DNA from: Rhodospirillaceae bacterium
GTDB lineage: Bacteria > Pseudomonadota > Alphaproteobacteria > Dongiales > Dongiaceae
Direction: 5' to 3'
Length of the DNA stretch: 64,000 nt
Assembly: GCA_008012315.1 (NCBI GenBank)
Contig: SSEL01000006.1
Location: 1 to 64,000, forward strand
Notes under the pieces: generated by a model
What the model saw: only the letters and a program-made list of their open reading frames with translations
The model's database searches: none
Told to the model about the DNA's origin: nothing
In this document: positions 36,555 to 45,741 of the stretch, piece after piece
Layout of the letters: each line of letters starts with the position of its first letter
Numbering within the stretch: position 1 is the first letter of the stretch
Translations under genes and position numbers: made by a program

Positions 36555-38861
36555 ATGAGCATTCTTGGAGCGATGTTTACGGCGGTCAGTGGGCTCAATG
36601 CCCAATCCCGCGCGATGGGCGCCATCTCCGATAACATCGCCAATTCCCAGACCGTCGGCTACAAGAAGGTCGGCACTCGGTTCGAATCCCTGATCACCGT
36701 CTCGAACGCCAACAATCACCAGCCGGGCGGCGTGGTCGCTTCGCCGTTCTATGCCAATGGTCTGCAAGGCAATATCAGCACCTCAGATGTCACCACCAAC
36801 CTTGCGCTCAGTGGCAACGGCTTTTTCGTGGTGAGCCGGCCCACCGGCCAGACTGCCGACCAGACGACCTTCAGCAATCTGCCCTACTACACCCGCGCCG
36901 GCGACTTCAACGTCAATCGCGACGGCTATATGGTCAATGGCAGCGGCTACTATCTGAACGCCTGGTCGGTCGATCCGAAAACCGGTGCAGCCGACACGGC
37001 ATCCTTGCAGCCGATCAAGATTACCCAGGTGATCGACGAGCCGACCCCGACCAGCACAATGGACTTCGTCGGCAACCTGCCGGCGAATTCCGCGGTCAAC
37101 CCGACCCCGCCCTTGGCGCCGAACAACATCACCGTTTATGACAATCTCGGCAATCCGCATACCGTTTCGCTGGTCTGGCAGAAGCGCGCGGATAATATGT
37201 GGAAGCTGGATATCCAGGCGCCCGACAGCACGCTCGATCCGGTCGGCGGCACGATCACCGGCCTGGACGATCAGGCGATGTCGGCCCCCACGACGGTAAC
37301 CCCCAACGTGCCGCCGGTTGCGCAGGTCGATACGCTGACCATCCCCGCCATGGCGCAAGGCGATACCTTTACCTATACCATCGGCTCAAACCCGATCACC
37401 ATCACCGCCCCGGTCGGCGGTTATACCAGTGCCCAGGCCGCCGCAGCGATCGTGTCGCGGATCAACTCGGATCCCGGCCTCTCCGCGCTTGTTACGGCCG
37501 GCAATATCGGCACGGTCGGCGGCACGGCGCAGGTTAATACCGTGACCCTTCCGAACCTGGATGATGGCGATTCTGTCAGTCTCTCCGTGAACGGCAACAC
37601 CGTTACCTACACCAATACTTCGGGCGCCACGGAGACGCCGGCACAGGTTGCCGCCGGCCTGCAAGCCCTCGCTGCCGGCAGCACGGCGGTTTCCAATACG
37701 GTGACGGCGGCCGTGGTGGGCAATGATCTCACCCTGACCGCGAATACGCCGGGCCTGGCATTCAGCGGCACGGTGACCGGCAGCGGCACGGGCGCCGGCG
37801 CCACCATTGGCATTACCACCGCCAACGTTCCGGGAAGCGGCACACTGAACGTTACATCCGACACGCCGGGAACGCCTTTCTCGGCTTCGATCGGCGGCAC
37901 CGGCGGCGGTGCGGGCGCCACGGTCAGCACGACGACGCCCAACGTGACGCCGATCGCCCAGGTCGACTCCATCACCTTGAGCGGCACCGTCGGCAGCATG
38001 GAAGTCGGTGATACCTGGTCGGTAACGGTCGGCACCAACAAGATCACCTATGTCAGCACCGGTCTTGAAAGCTCGCTGACGGATGTCGCCAATGGCCTGG
38101 CTGATCTCATCAATGCCAACCCCTCCATCGGGGTCGATGCATCGGTTTCGGGCGGCATTCTTAACCTGACGGCGCGCAAGGCCGGCACCGGCTTCACCTC
38201 CGCCGCCAGCGCGGCAAACGGCAACGTTCCGGGCTTCATCGATGTCCAGTTCGGTGTCACACCGGATACCGCGGGCAAGCTGACGCAGGTCACCAATGCC
38301 TATAATCTCGGCGGCAACGCCCAGATCCCGGCGAGCCAGAATGCCGATGATCCGGCCACGATCAACTTCCAGGTCGATTACGGCACGGGCCCACAAACAA
38401 TCACCCTTAATCTCGGTCAGTTCCAGAACTCTGAAAACGGCCTGACGCAGTTCGAAGGCGACGACATTTCGCTGCAGCGCTTCGTCCAGGACGGCGTCCC
38501 CCAGGGGTTATTGAAGGATGTGAACATCCGCGATAACGGCGATGTCGCCATCACCTATGACAATGGCAATACAAAGGTCTATTTCCGCGTCCCGGTCGCT
38601 CAGTTCTATGACACGACGGCGCTGCAGCGCGAGGATGGCCAAGCCTTCATCGAAACCTTCGACAGCGGCGCACCGCGCCTCTCCGCGGCGGGCGAGAACG
38701 GTGCCGGCACCATCCGTGGCAGCTCGACGGAAGATTCCAACGTGGATATCGCCGAGGAATTCTCCAAGATGATCGTGACGCAGCGGTCCTATTCCGCCAA
38801 TACCCGCATCATCACCACGGCCGACGAAATGCTTCAGGACATCCTGGCGATTAAGCGCTGA
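36555..38861 (+). CDS. flgE: FlgE, flagellar hook protein with inserted repeat modules
   Basis: A 768-residue hook protein, far longer than the roughly 400-residue enterobacterial FlgE. The N-terminal D0 signature (LGAMFTAVSGLNAQSRAMGAISDNIANSQTVGYKK), GNGFFVVS (around 87) and the C-terminal VDIAEEFSKMIVTQRSYSANTRIITTADEMLQDILAIKR are intact. Residues about 256-560 are an insertion made of three beta-rich modules (starting at QVDTLTIP, QVNTVTLP and QVDSITLS), with a Gly/Thr-rich partial duplication between the second and third. The same module occurs in FlgK and FlgL. The insert would sit in the surface-exposed outer domains. It follows a sigma-54 promoter and is 28 bp from flgK. Confidence 0.95.
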   Translation: MSILGAMFTAVSGLNAQSRAMGAISDNIANSQTVGYKKVGTRFESLITVSNANNHQPGGVVASPFYANGLQGNISTSDVTTNLALSGNGFFVVSRPTGQTADQTTFSNLPYYTRAGDFNVNRDGYMVNGSGYYLNAWSVDPKTGAADTASLQPIKITQVIDEPTPTSTMDFVGNLPANSAVNPTPPLAPNNITVYDNLGNPHTVSLVWQKRADNMWKLDIQAPDSTLDPVGGTITGLDDQAMSAPTTVTPNVPPVAQVDTLTIPAMAQGDTFTYTIGSNPITITAPVGGYTSAQAAAAIVSRINSDPGLSALVTAGNIGTVGGTAQVNTVTLPNLDDGDSVSLSVNGNTVTYTNTSGATETPAQVAAGLQALAAGSTAVSNTVTAAVVGNDLTLTANTPGLAFSGTVTGSGTGAGATIGITTANVPGSGTLNVTSDTPGTPFSASIGGTGGGAGATVSTTTPNVTPIAQVDSITLSGTVGSMEVGDTWSVTVGTNKITYVSTGLESSLTDVANGLADLINANPSIGVDASVSGGILNLTARKAGTGFTSAASAANGNVPGFIDVQFGVTPDTAGKLTQVTNAYNLGGNAQIPASQNADDPATINFQVDYGTGPQTITLNLGQFQNSENGLTQFEGDDISLQRFVQDGVPQGLLKDVNIRDNGDVAITYDNGNTKVYFRVPVAQFYDTTALQREDGQAFIETFDSGAPRLSAAGENGAGTIRGSSTEDSNVDIAEEFSKMIVTQRSYSANTRIITTADEMLQDILAIKR
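37320..38234 (+). repeat. Three beta-rich modules inside FlgE
   Basis: Residues about 256-320, 326-425 and 468-560 share the layout: QVDxxTL start, a GDxxxxTV strand, a short N/D-G turn, T-Y strand, an alpha segment (AAAIVSRIN, AAGLQAL, ANGLADLIN), then a VT.. strand pair and PGxxFxxxxxG. Residues 388-424 and 427-464 are near-duplicate C-terminal halves. Boundaries are by eye. Confidence 0.75.
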
Positions 38862-38889
38862 GGCATCATAGGTCGGTGGGAGAGTAAAG

Positions 38890-40605
38890 ATGTCGCTAAC
38901 CGGTGCCTTGAATTCCGCAGTCGCTTCACTGAGGCTCAATCAGTCGGCGCTGCAACTGCTGTCGTCCAATGTGGCGCATGCCGACGACCCCAACTATACC
39001 AAGCGGTCCATCATCCAGCAGAGCCTGTATTACGGCTCGGACCAGGTTGGTGGGGTCGGGATCGCCGGCTATGCGAACGCCGTCAACGAATCCCTGCGCA
39101 AGCAGTACGAAGGCTTGACGGCAAAAGACGGCATGTCCAGCACACAGGCGGATTATCTCTCGCGTGTCCAGGATCTGCTTGGCAGCAGCACCGATTCCGC
39201 CGGCCTGCCGACATTGTTTACCGACTTCGTCAATGCCTGGCAGACCTTCCAATCGGAGCCGGACAGCTCCGCCGCGCAAAGCGAAGTGATCAGCAAGGGC
39301 AATCAGTTCGCTCAGGAGATCAACCGGCTGGCCGATGGTATCGATCAGCTCGACCGCGACGTGCGGACGGATACCGATAACAGCGTCAAGCAGTTCAACG
39401 ACCTCCTGGATCAGGTCTACGCCGTCAACGTCAAGCTGAAGTCATCGGATCCCAACGATCCCGGGCATGGCGACCTGATCGATCAGCGGGATCAGCTGGT
39501 TCGCCAGGTGGCGCAATATGCGGATGTCCGCACCGTCGAGCGCGACAATGGCTCCATCGCCCTCTTCACGACCGGCGGCCTGTCCCTGGTCGACGGCCCG
39601 CCGCAGAAATTCAGCTTTAACGGCACGAATATCATCTCCGTCGAATCCGGCCAGCCGATCGACGGACAGTTGCGCGATGGCAAGCTGAAGGCGCTGCTGA
39701 ACTTCCGGGCGGATAACAGCGCCAAGAACCAGGCGCCCAGCAGCGATCCGGCAAGCGAAGTGATCCGTAAGCTGAAGTCGCAGCTCGACGGCCTCGTCTC
39801 CGCCTTCACATCGGTGACGGGGAATCCCTCGACCTTCGCCGCGACGTATAACAACGCCACCCAGTCGCAGCGCATCCAGGCGTCGTTCAGCACGACGGTT
39901 CAAGCCACTGCCGCCACGAGCCAGTCAACCACCGTGACCTTCTCCGGCAGCATTCAGTCCGGCGACGTGTTCTCCATTAATGTGAACGGCAAGTCGTTCA
40001 GCTATACCGCGACGGAATCGGATACCAGCCTCGACCAGATTGCGGCGCAGCTTGCCACCAAGATCAATGCCGACCCGACCGTGGGCATTACCGCCACCAA
40101 CGGCGTCGGCTCGCTCATGTTGTCGGGGCCGGGAAACAATCAACCCTTCGACGTCCAGACCTCTGTCAATGGCCAGGTGCCGGAGCTGAGCGGCGGTTTC
40201 TTCACCGGAACCGATCGCTATTCATTCTCCGTCAACGCCTCGCTGCTCGACGGCACACAGCAATTGAAGCGCAATGCGGCGTCGGATGTCGTCGGTGCGT
40301 TCAACAATTCCGATCGTAACTTCATGGCAGCCGGCCTCTCGGCCACCAATGTCTCCTATTCGGACATGGTCGGCAATGTGATCGGTGCCGCCAGTTCCAA
40401 TGCGAAGACCGTCGGCGATCAGGCCAAATACAATGCGGATACGCTCTCGATGACGGAACAGCGCTACCAGTCGGATGTCGGCGTGAATTTGGACGAGGAA
40501 ATCGCCAATTTGCAGGTCCTGCAGAACGCCTATGCGGCTTCTGCCCGCCTGCTGACCGTCATTCAAAGCATGTTCGATACGCTGGACCAAGCGGTTGCAC
40601 GCTGA
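38890..40605 (+). CDS. flgK: FlgK, hook-filament junction protein 1
   Basis: A 571-residue junction protein. The N-terminus (LNSAVASLRLNQSALQLLSSNVAHADDPNYTKR) and C-terminus (VNLDEEIANLQVLQNAYAASARLLTVIQSMFDTLDQAV) form the D0/D1 helices. The middle includes FTDFVNAWQTFQSEPDSSAAQSEVI and HGDLIDQRDQLV, all FlgK features. Residues about 344-428 contain one copy of the beta-rich module repeated in FlgE and FlgL (TTVTFSGSIQSGDVFSINVNG). It lies 28 bp after flgE and 25 bp before flgL, in one operon. Confidence 0.95.
   Translation: MSLTGALNSAVASLRLNQSALQLLSSNVAHADDPNYTKRSIIQQSLYYGSDQVGGVGIAGYANAVNESLRKQYEGLTAKDGMSSTQADYLSRVQDLLGSSTDSAGLPTLFTDFVNAWQTFQSEPDSSAAQSEVISKGNQFAQEINRLADGIDQLDRDVRTDTDNSVKQFNDLLDQVYAVNVKLKSSDPNDPGHGDLIDQRDQLVRQVAQYADVRTVERDNGSIALFTTGGLSLVDGPPQKFSFNGTNIISVESGQPIDGQLRDGKLKALLNFRADNSAKNQAPSSDPASEVIRKLKSQLDGLVSAFTSVTGNPSTFAATYNNATQSQRIQASFSTTVQATAATSQSTTVTFSGSIQSGDVFSINVNGKSFSYTATESDTSLDQIAAQLATKINADPTVGITATNGVGSLMLSGPGNNQPFDVQTSVNGQVPELSGGFFTGTDRYSFSVNASLLDGTQQLKRNAASDVVGAFNNSDRNFMAAGLSATNVSYSDMVGNVIGAASSNAKTVGDQAKYNADTLSMTEQRYQSDVGVNLDEEIANLQVLQNAYAASARLLTVIQSMFDTLDQAVAR
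39919..40173 (+). repeat. Single beta-rich module inside FlgK
   Basis: Residues about 344-428: TVTFSGSIQSGDVFSINVNG, then FSYTATESDTSLDQIAAQLATKIN, then ITATNGVGSLMLSGPG and QPFDVQTS. The order of elements matches the modules in FlgE and FlgL. Confidence 0.75.
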
Positions 40606-40630
40606 TAGCGGCGTGATTTAGGAGCACGAT

Positions 40631-43177
40631 ATGTCCATCAACGCTTACAGCAGCTATGCCTCCTATCTGAACAACCTGGGCGGCATCCAGCGTACTCAGT
40701 CCAATCTGAATACGCTGCTTGAGCAGTTGAACACGGAGAAGAAGTCGACCGACCTCACCTTCTACGGGGCGGACAGCACGCGGCTGCTTGATCTCCGGGC
40801 CGATATCGCCAAGCGCCAGGGCTATATGCAGACAATCGACGGCGCCCAGACAGACGTCAAAGCCTATGACGCGGCCTTCACCAGCCTGGAAGATCTGGCA
40901 TCGCAAATGATGAGCGCCTTCACGGCACCGGATTCCGATCCGCCGACATTGCAGCAGCACCAGGTGACGCTGAAGGGTGATATCGGTGATGTCGGCGATG
41001 TCTATAAGGTGACCGTCGATGGTGTGGTCTTCAGCTATGTCACAACCGGTGTTGAAGGGAATCTCGATGAAATTGCCGGCAACCTGACTGCCCAGATCAA
41101 TGCCCACCAGCCGCCTTTGCAGGGTACGGCGACATCGACCGGCGGGGTCATCACCATCACCGGCAATCAGCCCGGCCCGCTCTTCGACGTCTCCGCCAGC
41201 ATGACGGATGTCGATGGCGGCAAAACCAACTCCATTTCGGCCGTCCTGACCCAGCAGGGCAAGATTTCGCCCATCGTCGCCCAGGTCAACAATGCCCTTA
41301 GCCAGGTCATGGCCCTGCTGAATGAGCGGGTCAATGACCGCTACCTGTTCGGCGGCCTGAACATCAACAACCAGATGCCGGTGGTCGATCTCTCGCGATT
41401 GCCGGATCCGACCGGCAGCAAGAACGCGATTGCCGATGCGACCACGCAGCAGCTCGCGCCGGGCACGATCGTTCAGGAAACGCGGATCACCGCCGATTAT
41501 CTCGGCACCAACCAGACGGAAACCATCACGGTGAACGGCACGCCGCTCACCTTCACCGGCCCGCTGACCCAGCAGCAATTGGCTAGCCAGGTCGCAACCG
41601 CGATCAGCGGTAATCCGGCGATCACCGGCGTTACGGTGCAGGATGTGGATGGCCAGGGCCTGACGATCAAATCGACAACACCCGGCACCGGTTTCTCGGT
41701 ATCGATTACCGGCACCGATCCGACCCCGTCGACGTCCAAGACCGTCCGGGCGAATGTTCCGCTTGGCGCCAATCAAGTCGATAAGATCGCCCTCTCCGGC
41801 CCCGTTGGCGTTATCGGCGAGACCTATAGCGTCACGATCATGGACCCGCCCAACAACACGGCGCCGGTGACGATCAGCTACCGGACGACAGGCAATGAAA
41901 AGGACCTGAACGAGATTGCCGGCAAGCTGATCGACCAGATCAACTCGCATCAGCCGCCCTTTACCGTTTCCGTCACCAATACCGGCAACGGCACCCTGCA
42001 GCTCAGCTCGGCGACTGCTTTCACATCGCATGCCGGCATAGGCCAGAGTGCCAATGTTGCGACCACGCAACGCACCGTCGTGCCTGTTGCACAGCAGGAA
42101 GAAGTCAGCTTCCCCGGACCTTTCGGCGAAGCCGGCGACCAATATTCCATCAGCTTCACGGCGCCCGTCGGCGGCCCCTTCACGGTGACGACGAACACCT
42201 TCGATACCGAGGAATCCGTCGCTCAGCAGATGGCCGACCAGATCAACGCGGCGGGTCTTGGCGTGACGGCCGTCATTCGCAACGGTCATCTGTCGGTGAC
42301 GTCCGATACGCCCGGCATTCCCTTCACCATGACCTCCGCTCTGACGGTCGATGGAGGGACGACCACGACCGCGGCGCCGGTGCAGACACAGACGATCGCC
42401 AATATTCCCCCCGGGCCGCAGCCCCAGGTCGATGAAGTTGCCCTGAGCGGACCGGTCGGCCGTAAAGGTGACGTCTATGAGTTGACGGTGAATGGCCGGA
42501 CCATCCGCTATACGACCGACGGCACCGAACAGGACATGGATGCCATTGCCATTCACCTGACGGCGCTCGCCAATTCGCAGACACCACCCTTCCCCGCTTC
42601 GGCCGTTGCCGGCCCGACCGGCAGTGGCAAGCTGATCCTGACCGGGACGACGCCGGGCGTGGAGTTGAAGACTGAAGTGAAGGTCGCCACGCCGCTGCCG
42701 GTCACCAATCCGGCGGCGCCCGATTACAGCGCTTATCAGCAGCCGTCCGATTCCGGCCTTGCCTGGCAGCGCGGAACGCTCACGATCGCTGACAACACCA
42801 ACCTGAAATACACCTTCAGCGCCAATGACCCGGCGATGCAGAAGATCGCCATGGCGCTGCGCTATGCCCAGTCGGCGGTGGCCGATCCGGCCAACTATCA
42901 ATCCAAGATGGATGTCGCCAAGCAGCTGGCACAGGATTCGCTTACCGGAATCCGAGCTCTTCACAGCGACAATACGGTGAATGATACGGTGATGTCCGCA
43001 GCCACCCTTGCCCACAAAACCTCGATCAATGTGTTCAGCAATTCGACGGAGAAGATCGAAGGGATTGATCAGAACGAGGTGGCGGCCAAGATCCAGGCGG
43101 CGCAGCTTCAACTGCAGACGTCCTTCGCCGCTTTTGCCTCAACCGCGAGATTGTCGCTGGTCAACTTCATTGCCTGA
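40631..43177 (+). CDS. flgL: FlgL, hook-filament junction protein 3, with five inserted modules
   Basis: An 848-residue protein, more than twice the size of typical FlgL. The flagellin-like N-terminal helix (YASYLNNLGGIQRTQSNLNTLLEQLNTEKKSTDLTFYG) and C-terminal helix (KIEGIDQNEVAAKIQAAQLQLQTSFAAFASTARLSLVNF) identify FlgL, as does VNDRYLFGGLNINNQMP near residue 234. Between them are five copies of a module of about 85 residues (around 108-192, 282-372, 382-470, 489-573 and 599-686). The modules are domain-like and should project from the junction surface. A flagellin is a less likely identity because the gene follows flgK and precedes fliK. Confidence 0.9.
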   Translation: MSINAYSSYASYLNNLGGIQRTQSNLNTLLEQLNTEKKSTDLTFYGADSTRLLDLRADIAKRQGYMQTIDGAQTDVKAYDAAFTSLEDLASQMMSAFTAPDSDPPTLQQHQVTLKGDIGDVGDVYKVTVDGVVFSYVTTGVEGNLDEIAGNLTAQINAHQPPLQGTATSTGGVITITGNQPGPLFDVSASMTDVDGGKTNSISAVLTQQGKISPIVAQVNNALSQVMALLNERVNDRYLFGGLNINNQMPVVDLSRLPDPTGSKNAIADATTQQLAPGTIVQETRITADYLGTNQTETITVNGTPLTFTGPLTQQQLASQVATAISGNPAITGVTVQDVDGQGLTIKSTTPGTGFSVSITGTDPTPSTSKTVRANVPLGANQVDKIALSGPVGVIGETYSVTIMDPPNNTAPVTISYRTTGNEKDLNEIAGKLIDQINSHQPPFTVSVTNTGNGTLQLSSATAFTSHAGIGQSANVATTQRTVVPVAQQEEVSFPGPFGEAGDQYSISFTAPVGGPFTVTTNTFDTEESVAQQMADQINAAGLGVTAVIRNGHLSVTSDTPGIPFTMTSALTVDGGTTTTAAPVQTQTIANIPPGPQPQVDEVALSGPVGRKGDVYELTVNGRTIRYTTDGTEQDMDAIAIHLTALANSQTPPFPASAVAGPTGSGKLILTGTTPGVELKTEVKVATPLPVTNPAAPDYSAYQQPSDSGLAWQRGTLTIADNTNLKYTFSANDPAMQKIAMALRYAQSAVADPANYQSKMDVAKQLAQDSLTGIRALHSDNTVNDTVMSAATLAHKTSINVFSNSTEKIEGIDQNEVAAKIQAAQLQLQTSFAAFASTARLSLVNFIA
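40952..42688 (+). repeat. Five beta-rich modules inside FlgL
   Basis: Copies start at VTLKGDIGDVGDVYKVTVDG (residue 112), ETRITADYLGTNQTETITVN (282), VDKIALSGPVGVIGETYSVT (383), EEVSFPGPFGEAGDQYSISF (490) and VDEVALSGPVGRKGDVYELT (600). Each continues with a Y-x-T strand, an acidic turn, an IAxxLxxxIN helix and a final LxLTxxxPGxxF strand pair. Copies 1, 3 and 5 are the closest. Boundaries are by eye. Confidence 0.82.
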
Positions 43178-43186
43178 CGGACTGTC

Positions 43187-44941
43187 ATGACCTCGATGCC
43201 GTTCAATCTCATTGGCCTCGCCAAGCCGACCGAAAGTCGGCAGCAGGAAGCCCGCAACAAAACCGGCAATCAGGCTGGTGATGACTTCGCCGCCCTTCTG
43301 CGCGAGAAAGCCGACAACAATCGGTGGCAATCATTGAGAGCCACCGATACACGGTCCGCTTCGTGGCGCCGGAGCAGTTACGATGCGTCATGGCATAACG
43401 ATAGCTCGGCGCCGCAACCGAAGCGGCCCTCAACACCATCGGATCGCCCGAACGCCGGAAGCGATAAGCTGCATGATCGCCACGACCGGGCCGCTGCCGC
43501 GCGCGGGAAATTGACTGACCCGGCTCATGCCAGCCAGGACAAGGCATCGGCCAAGGATGTCGTGAAAGCCCGCAAAGAGGGCGGCAAGGCCGATGACGAC
43601 ACAAAGAGCGAGACGGCAGCCGCCGCGGCGGATGGCAAACAGCAAGCGGGCGATAGCAGCGACGTCCACCATCACGGCAAGCAGGACGATGCGTCCGATC
43701 AGCAGAGCGGCCAGCAGCAGGGTCAGCAGCAGTCGGCCCAGGACGGCCAGACGGCAGATGGCCAGTCATCGAATGGCCAGGCAACCGATGGCCAGGCAAC
43801 CGATGGCCAGGCGACCAACGGTCAGACCGCCGATGGCCTGACCGTTACTGCCGTTCCCGTCGCTGCCACCGGCGCGGCTCCCGTGCCGAAAGCCGGCGCG
43901 ACGCCGGCACTGCCGGGCGCGGCAGCGGCTGACGGCACAGGAAAGTCAGATCCGGCAGATCTGTCGATTCCCCTGGCTCCTGGCCTGCAATTGGCTCCGG
44001 CGGCCGATCTCCCCGAGGATGGATCGGTGGCGGACGGAAAGACGAAACCCGGCGCCACGGCGCCATCGGGCACCAACACGCCCGTCGATGGCGCCGCAAC
44101 GGCACGTGCCCCCTTGTCGATCGAGCAAATCCTGGTTCCGGCCGGAAAATCCGCGGCTGCCGGTTCGTCGATCGCCGATAACAATCCCCTCACGGCCGGG
44201 CCGCATAAGGGTCTTGCCGAAAAGGGCAGCCAGCGCGATCCGGCCAAGATCGATGCCGTGCGCGCACCTCAGGCGGTGGTGCAGTCGACACAGTCCCAGA
44301 CGCAGCCGAATGCTGCACCGGTAGGACAGACTCAAGATGGCGATGCCGGTTTCGGTACCGGCTTCGGCAATGGCGATTTTGGCGGCTTCGATAACGGCAC
44401 GGGCAATTACGGCGGATTTGGCGCCTGGCCGATGTCACCGCTGCTGACGGCGAGCCCCTCGAAGCAGGCCGATTTCGTCGCCGCCCTCAAACAGCAACTC
44501 GGCAATATGCCCCTTCAGGAACAGGTCGCGGTCCAGATGCAACGCGCTGCGCGGGATGGTGTCGATAAAATCAGCATTCAATTGTCGCCGGAAGAGCTTG
44601 GCCGGATCCACGTGAAGATGGATATCGACGACGACAAGAAGGTACGCACCACCGTGACGGTGGAACGGCCGGCGACCCTCGATCTTTTGCAGCGGGATTC
44701 CCGGGCGTTGGAACGGGCCTTGCAAGAGGCAGGGTTGAAGACCGACAGTGGCAGCCTGTCCTTCAACCTACAGCGCGGAAATACCGGGGATTTTTCCGGT
44801 TCCGGTGATTGGGGACAGGGTGGCCGGCAGTCATCCCGTACGTCTGGCCAGGCAGGAATTGCCGGCCCGGCCGACCGGATCACCGCCGCCAATGCCCCTG
44901 AAATCGATACCGCCAATGGCTTGGTCGATGTCGAGGTCTGA
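43187..44941 (+). CDS. fliK: FliK, hook-length control protein
   Basis: A 584-residue protein with a long disordered N-terminal ruler region rich in Gln, Ala, Asp and Gly, and the conserved FliK C-terminal domain at about residues 440-555 (MPLQEQVAVQMQRAARDGVDKISIQLSPEELGRIHVKMDIDDDKKVRTTVTVERPATLDLLQRDSRALERALQEAGL). FliK measures hook length and triggers the FlhB switch. The ruler contains seven DGQAT-like pentapeptides encoded by a 15-bp tandem repeat. It lies 9 bp after flgL and 20 bp before flgD. Confidence 0.93.
   Translation: MTSMPFNLIGLAKPTESRQQEARNKTGNQAGDDFAALLREKADNNRWQSLRATDTRSASWRRSSYDASWHNDSSAPQPKRPSTPSDRPNAGSDKLHDRHDRAAAARGKLTDPAHASQDKASAKDVVKARKEGGKADDDTKSETAAAAADGKQQAGDSSDVHHHGKQDDASDQQSGQQQGQQQSAQDGQTADGQSSNGQATDGQATDGQATNGQTADGLTVTAVPVAATGAAPVPKAGATPALPGAAAADGTGKSDPADLSIPLAPGLQLAPAADLPEDGSVADGKTKPGATAPSGTNTPVDGAATARAPLSIEQILVPAGKSAAAGSSIADNNPLTAGPHKGLAEKGSQRDPAKIDAVRAPQAVVQSTQSQTQPNAAPVGQTQDGDAGFGTGFGNGDFGGFDNGTGNYGGFGAWPMSPLLTASPSKQADFVAALKQQLGNMPLQEQVAVQMQRAARDGVDKISIQLSPEELGRIHVKMDIDDDKKVRTTVTVERPATLDLLQRDSRALERALQEAGLKTDSGSLSFNLQRGNTGDFSGSGDWGQGGRQSSRTSGQAGIAGPADRITAANAPEIDTANGLVDVEV
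43742..43846 (+). repeat. 15-bp tandem repeat in the FliK ruler region
   Basis: Seven in-frame 15-bp units of the type GATGGCCAGGCAACC encode DGQTA-DGQSS-NGQAT-DGQAT-DGQAT-NGQTA-DGLTV. The fourth and fifth units differ by one base. Slippage could change ruler length in steps of five residues without breaking the frame. Confidence 0.9.
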
Positions 44942-44961
44942 ACGAGCGGAAGGGACCGGAC

Positions 44962-45741
44962 ATGACCACGATTAATTCAACGCCGAATGTCGCCGACATC
45001 CTGGGGAAGAACCAGACCCAGACAAATACGTCGTCCACCCCCACCGACGACGCCGCGGCTTCACTCAATGGCCAGTACAATGACTTCCTGCTGCTGCTGA
45101 CGAAGCAATTGCAGAATCAGGATCCGTTGTCACCGCTCGACACCGCGCAATTCACCCAGCAATTGGTCGGCTTCGCCTCGGTCGAACAGATGATTCAGCA
45201 GAATAAGAGCTTGAATCAACTGATTAACCTGCAATCTTCCACCAATACCTATGCCGCTGCGGGCTTCCTGGGGAACACGGTCGCCGTGGATAGCGACCAG
45301 ATTTCCCTGCAGAACGGTCATGCCAGTTTCCAATATCAGATCGAAACAGGTGCGACCCAGGCGGAGCTGCGCATCACCGATTCCAGAGGACAGATCGTGT
45401 TGGTGCAGCAGGCCAACGAAGGTGTGGGCACCTATCAGGTCGACTGGCAGGGCCAAGGCTTCGCAGGCCAGCTGCCCGACGGCCAGTACCAGGTTTCGGT
45501 GGTCTATTCGGATGCCAATGGCAAGATGTACAGCGCACCGATCACCGCCTACGGCAAAGTCGATTCTGCCGATATCAAGGACGGCAAGGTCAGTCTGAAT
45601 GTCGGCTCGGTCAGCTATCCCATCGACAAGATCATCAAGATCGTTCACCAGGATACGCAGGCAACGACGCCGCCGGCGGATGACGACACGCCCGACACAT
45701 CCAATCCATCGGGCGAGCAGGAACAGCAGCCCGCCGCGTAA
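44962..45741 (+). CDS. flgD: FlgD, hook cap protein
   Basis: A 259-residue hook scaffolding protein. The N-terminal FlgD signature (NDFLLLLTKQLQNQDPLSPLDTAQFTQQLVGFASVEQMIQQNKSL) is followed by the FLG/tudor-like region (FLGNTVAVDSDQISLQNG) and the Ig-like FlgD domain (AELRITDSRGQIVLVQQANEGVGTYQVDWQGQGFAGQLPDGQYQVSVVY). The C-terminal 40 residues are acidic and Pro/Thr-rich. Last gene of the flgE operon. Confidence 0.95.
   Translation: MTTINSTPNVADILGKNQTQTNTSSTPTDDAAASLNGQYNDFLLLLTKQLQNQDPLSPLDTAQFTQQLVGFASVEQMIQQNKSLNQLINLQSSTNTYAAAGFLGNTVAVDSDQISLQNGHASFQYQIETGATQAELRITDSRGQIVLVQQANEGVGTYQVDWQGQGFAGQLPDGQYQVSVVYSDANGKMYSAPITAYGKVDSADIKDGKVSLNVGSVSYPIDKIIKIVHQDTQATTPPADDDTPDTSNPSGEQEQQPAA

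Follow-up and report, generated by a model that had tools for sequence, protein, structure and literature searches.

The hook and junction operon

The window, a stretch of 64,000 nucleotides from a Rhodospirillaceae bacterium (contig SSEL01000006.1, positions 1 to 64,000), carries three flagellar genes in the order FlgE, FlgK, FlgL, and in each of the three proteins copies of a small domain, which we call the module, sit between the terminal parts. An earlier note, made from the letters of this DNA, had given the coordinates of this region and the lengths of FlgE and FlgL correctly. The genes and modules are as follows.

36555..38861, + strand: flgE, hook protein, 768 aa; modules inserted between residues ~227 and 612
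37317..37511, + strand: FlgE module 1, its first half with strands and helix (residues 255-319); profile matches
37521..37820, + strand: FlgE module 2, whole; hypervariable position; profile matches
37818..37952, + strand: FlgE extra C-terminal half-module (residues 423-466); profile matches
37947..38249, + strand: FlgE module 3, whole; profile matches
38890..40605, + strand: flgK, hook-filament junction protein, 571 aa; Pfam and NCBIfam
39913..40194, + strand: FlgK single module; profile matches
40631..43177, + strand: flgL, junction protein, 848 aa; Pfam and NCBIfam
40943..41242, + strand: FlgL module 1, a separate insertion, with the first long helix (49-98) on one side and helix 215-230 on the other; profile matches and full FlgL model
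41459..41752, + strand: FlgL module 2, start of a tandem run of four; profile matches and full FlgL model
41765..42085, + strand: FlgL module 3, grouping with module 5 in the tree; profile matches and tree
42083..42379, + strand: FlgL module 4, holding the best Flagellin_IN stretch (residues 522-560); profile matches and Pfam
42416..42724, + strand: FlgL module 5, modelled with AlphaFold2 (pLDDT 89); profile matches

The terminal parts are those of ordinary axial proteins, as the earlier note had held, with Pfam or NCBIfam matches at both ends of all three. FlgE begins and ends with Flg_bb_rod, LlgE_F_G_D1 and Flg_bbr_C (Pfam/NCBIfam) and FlgK with FlgK_D1 and Flg_bbr_C, both canonical D0/D1 arrangements, and the ends of FlgL match stretches of the NCBIfam flagellin/FlgL-type models NF004669 and TIGR02550 with scores under their full-length cut-offs. 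Downstream, at 43187-45741 of the window, the next two frames look by eye like a FliK-type hook-length protein (584 aa) and FlgD (259 aa).

One module in three proteins

The homology of the module across the three proteins was examined with leave-one-protein-out HMMs, in which a profile built from one protein's modules was run against the other proteins, with 500 shuffles of each target as the control. The FlgL-module profile scored 84.5 bits against FlgE (best of the 500 shuffles, 2.7) and 45.0 bits against FlgK (best shuffle, 11.9), the FlgE-module profile 100.6 bits against FlgL (2.3), and the profile of the single FlgK module 62.5 bits against FlgL (9.4). Because these cross-protein scores far exceed those of the shuffles, the homology is real, and the earlier proposal of one module common to the three proteins and multiplied in them is confirmed. 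There are nine copies of one small surface domain in FlgE, FlgK and FlgL, real, well bounded and ancient. The size of the segment, put at about 85 residues in the earlier note, is closer to 95-105, and the majority consensus of 74 modules reads '..A..L...INA..'.

The count of three, one and five also stands, except that only two of the FlgE modules are whole here. Module 1 of FlgE is split: its first half is at residues 255-319, an extra last half is at 423-466, and module 2 lies between the two. In all nine of the family relatives that were aligned, FlgE has its three modules whole, one directly after another, and the extra half-module is absent from that place; it is either the end of module 1, displaced, or a second, partial copy of module 2.

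A relative of the same family (G005) gives the form of the proteins without modules. Its FlgK (463 aa) and FlgL (318 aa) are short, and both lack modules on alignment; in FlgK, ~90 residues are missing at the module site while both flanks are conserved, and its FlgE (open frame, 456 aa) matches the FlgE of the window only at residues 1-226 and 613-767. The modules therefore account for the extra length, as had been suggested.

Fold and family of the module

AlphaFold2 run on the 74 modules predicts three strands, a helix and three strands (pLDDT 89). The best match among solved structures is the outer domain of the tail sheath of cyanophage A-1(L) (8kee; Z 10.9 over 87 residues; Foldseek E 1.4e-4), and residues 99-201 of the Mu sheath reach Z 9.5. 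After the sheaths come T7-like tail domains, then flagellin outer domains (Pseudomonas aeruginosa FliC, 4nx9, and Stenotrophomonas maltophilia flagellin, 9atl, both Z 8.3), then the FliD outer domain (Z ~6); none of the 50 structural matches listed is a FlgE, FlgK or FlgL chain. The sheath and flagellin matches, at Z 8-11 over 80-91 of ~94 ordered residues, are of one fold with the module model. VIA-align also lists the chitin-active proteins GbpA and CbpD at Z 8.6-9 (GbpA with an rmsd of ~6 A), so that fold by itself is insufficient for membership, and it is the profile matches to sheaths and flagellins that add evidence from sequence. The sequence profile finds flagellins, one FliD and Mu-type sheaths (sheath residues ~100-175), and against solved structures it matches the phage protein gp76 in 9zdk (E 1.9e-6). 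Designed proteins of the Top7 kind that also matched the module profile were taken as chance. A full FlgL model has the same strand-helix-strand order in all five copies at low overall confidence (pLDDT 65, pTM 0.35), too uncertain to give an arrangement of the modules.

Named families capture the module only in part. Whole FlgL passes the gathering cut-off of Flagellin_IN (PF07196; 25.4 against 22.7 bits), and FlgE and FlgK do not match it. Among single modules, Flagellin_IN matches seven of the 74 at E<=1. We take this to be a family with a conserved helix ending in IN, often repeated and found in flagellar axial proteins, and the helix-terminal IN of the 74-module consensus and the tandem copies in FlgE and FlgL fit that description. 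Phage_sheath_domII (PF17481) matches one of the 74 (E 9e-6), too few to assign the module to it, and has no match in the window proteins by Pfam. Matches to the module in PHROGs are weak and unnamed, a sequence search of solved structures with FlgL returned nothing, and FlgL tblastn against phage records gave no match, so the link to phages is visible only through profiles and folds.

Within this genome, the first module profile finds the nine modules of the window and no others, and a broader profile adds two proteins of ~490-500 residues on other contigs, which Pfam identifies as phage tail sheaths; in one of the two, Pfam places sheath domain II at the module site. In these Mu-type sheaths the module lies at residues ~100-175 (C85:39820-40038, L109, and C7:7890-8111, L110). 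Since both carry it, a domain is common to the flagellum and the prophage tails of one cell. We found no statement in the open-licence literature that one domain is common to the outer domains of flagella and of sheaths; a study of sheath evolution notes merely a general likeness of the sheath to flagellin (PMC9230969).

The structure matches, the profile matches and the Flagellin_IN score of FlgL together indicate that the module belongs to a known fold, as a divergent branch of it that mostly carries no label. As modelled, it is a D2/D3-type outer domain of the fold common to flagellin, FliD and phage tail sheaths (the Flagellin_IN / Phage_sheath_domII region), set into the surface-facing part of the FlgE, FlgK and FlgL that belong to one particular flagellar system. 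The suggestion that it belongs to no described domain family is thus not borne out, with FlgL above the Flagellin_IN cut-off and the fold that of known outer domains. The fold is already known, and it is the host proteins and the copy number that are unusual.

Distribution and history of the copies

Ten of 17 species of the family, in three genera, have the long system, and each has exactly three modules in FlgE, one in FlgK and five in FlgL, in the same places. A second, distant flagellar system is present in three of these ten genomes (G006 on C9, G011 at C1:460-467 kb and G013 on C41), with short FlgE, FlgL and flagellin; read gene by gene, the second systems of G006 and G011 have no module in FlgK or FlgL (in one of the two, FlgE as well). 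In an Azospirillum-like family, FlgE has three to six modules and FlgL two or three, and FlgK is without any; FlgE-FlgK-FlgL clusters of this type lie on named Azospirillum plasmids, and one further genome of the class (G066) has FlgE and FlgL 71-75% identical to those of Azospirillum. Elsewhere in the class there are genomes with a single FlgE module (loci L070 and L073) or with two modules in flagellin. A 1776-aa frame that was not recognised as flagellar (L111, G569:C215) has two modules at residues 535-746.

Nine related copies in three adjacent genes could suggest a mobile module that was recently copied through the operon, or is still being copied, and is kept alike by gene conversion, which is how the earlier note had accounted for them. 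Consistent with this are the local rearrangement of FlgE in this lineage (module 2, and module 1 with its split), and one 88-nt stretch that is 70% identical between FlgL modules 1 and 3. However, the DNA repeats in the operon are short and weak, with no long ones, and the layout is identical in ten species. Modules at the same position have a mean identity of 54-63% between genera, FlgE module 2 excepted, against 23-27% between positions within a genome; copies within one genome are therefore not the more alike, and the copy-number variation among relatives that the earlier note had proposed to look for is absent, the 3-1-5 pattern being constant in all ten. In a maximum-likelihood tree, each of L1-L5 and K1 forms one clade with 99-100% support and E1 one with 91%, and the sole well-supported tie between positions joins L3 with L5. 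We therefore regard recent or ongoing spread as highly improbable. As copies group by position and not by genome, the multiplication is older than the three genera and has been fixed since. To judge from the sequences, there has been no concerted evolution: the copies keep their positional identity in ten species of three genera, and FlgE module 2 alone is unstable. A single origin of the nine modules apart from the flagellin and Azospirillum-type modules is weakly rejected (AU p 0.03, on 98 columns and for a group partly suggested by an earlier tree).

At eight of the nine module positions conservation is close to that of the FlgL core, and the exception, FlgE module 2, has a mean identity of 35% between genera, falling to 7% in the worst 25-residue bin. 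The FlgE module 1/2 region (window 37317-37952) stands apart from the other positions, with a rearrangement in this lineage and hypervariability between genera. Could the modules be a diversifying surface, by which the cell escapes flagellum-binding phages or host immunity, as the earlier note had raised? The hypervariability of module 2 speaks for such a surface, but the other eight positions, at 54-63%, behave like the FlgL core and the copy number is fixed. Core-like conservation points to structure rather than escape, and we consider evasion very unlikely.

Modules and flagellin size

In the ten module-bearing genomes the flagellin frames measure 741-803 aa; in nine of these the frames were read, and counted from likely starts they give 737-781 aa. 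The flagellins of G005, which is without modules, have 288-291 aa. In the second systems of G006, G011 and G013 the flagellin frames are 276-290 aa and the FlgL frames 308-319, and in the Azospirillum-like genomes the module occurs in FlgE, in FlgL and also in flagellins of 620-690 aa. Modules go with giant flagellins; the association is drawn from a single family, in which independent events are few and G005 is the one relative that has the same system without modules. Two members of the family without a module-bearing system are possible exceptions: G004 (C1:4533 kb) and G008 (C1:4639 kb) have a flagellin-like frame of ~697 aa away from the main flagellar cluster, and no module was found in their FlgE frame of 568 aa.

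Profile-profile comparison finds no module in the giant flagellins of the window's family (probability 1%, against 99.6% for the FlgL control), which appear to use some other outer domain. In this genome two giant flagellins (753 and 755 aa) flank a 1166-aa frame (L119, C61:500-12500), and their outer region is without a detectable module. A search of the whole genome for FliD (PF02465) gave no match despite the two flagellins, and a control Caulobacter genome likewise had none.

Function of the modules

We favour, with about even confidence, a reading in which the modules build a thick outer-domain shell on hook and junction that is matched to a bulky filament. D0 and D1 would form the tube as usual, and the modules would point outward and touch neighbouring subunits, so that hook and junction gain a thick, stiffer outer shell continuing towards the bulky filament, with FlgL, the last protein before the filament, bearing the most modules. 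The benefit would be mechanical continuity and the rotation of a heavy filament, not antigenic variation, and a second role in surface attachment is possible. What speaks for this shell is that the modules are conserved like the core and co-occur with giant flagellins; the co-occurrence also lends some support to the shared surface coat of the earlier note, which we regard as plausible. By analogy, the proposed contacts of FlgL and FlgK outer domains and the sheaths of flagellins in other bacteria (PMC6155364, PMC8931119) may support it as well. Since the giant flagellins of the window's family are without the module, the shell there would not be of one domain type from hook to filament. A more far-reaching form of the idea, which we think less likely than not, is that surface domains of one type, from a domain pool common to flagella and contractile phage tails, cover hook and junction, and in Azospirillum relatives the filament too, with an unbroken shell matched in size, in which modules of different axial proteins touch one another.

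An alternative is that the modules serve mainly in adhesion or surface contact, with roots, particles or other cells, like some flagellin outer domains. The fold is present on exposed parts of flagella and phage tails, chitin-active GbpA and CbpD are among its matches (though GbpA at the large rmsd given above), a role in adsorption to wheat roots has been proposed for the polar flagellum of Azospirillum brasilense (PMC12826043), and in relatives of Azospirillum the module occurs in FlgE and FlgL as well as in giant flagellins. Hook and junction, however, are a tiny share of the flagellar surface, the modules gave no sign of a binding site, and the modules within a genome are divergent from each other; we consider a mainly adhesive role unlikely. 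Somewhat less probable again is neutral accretion, in which insertions are tolerated away from the polymerising core and bring no benefit. The insertions do lie outside D0/D1, and large deletions in D2/D3 of Salmonella FliC have no effect on motility (PMC8931119), but nine modules in fixed number and order over three genera, conserved like the core and absent from short-filament systems, argue against it.

Whereas flagellin outer domains are well studied, those of hook and junction proteins hardly are. The module-bearing genomes and their relatives provide a natural comparison: one flagellar system occurs both with its nine added domains and without them, giant flagellins going with the one form and minimal flagellins with the other, and some genomes add a second flagellum without modules. 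The role of hook and junction outer domains thus becomes directly testable. In addition, the decoration domains of flagella and of phage tails fall in one group that is detectable by sequence.

Comparison with known systems

The premise of the earlier note, that the outer domains of hook and junction proteins are normally unrelated, is too strong. The D2 domain of Xanthomonas FlgL was reported in 2018 to resemble FlgK D2, and D2-D2 contacts along the junction were proposed for FlgL and FlgK (PMC6155364). Xanthomonas FlgL D2 and Burkholderia FlgK D2 are thus a published pair of junction proteins with alike outer domains (PMC6155364), although these are described as two-sheet beta-sandwiches without a central helix, which would set them apart from the module (PMC6155364). 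Extra outer domains are also found in Helicobacter pylori FliD, where D4 and D5 have folds like those of D2 and D3 (PMC8306008), and in flagellins the outer domains form sheaths, by which motility is changed (PMC8931119).

The flagellin (4nx9, 9atl) and FliD outer domains have the same fold as the module and the same place on the surface of the flagellar tube. Unlike them, the module occurs here in FlgE, FlgK and FlgL, with up to five copies per protein. Flagellin_IN (PF07196) and the module are alike in the helix ending 'IN', but the Pfam model has 55 positions and the module ~100. The Mu-type sheath has one copy per sheath protein, on a contractile phage tail, whereas the flagellum of the window has nine across three axial proteins.
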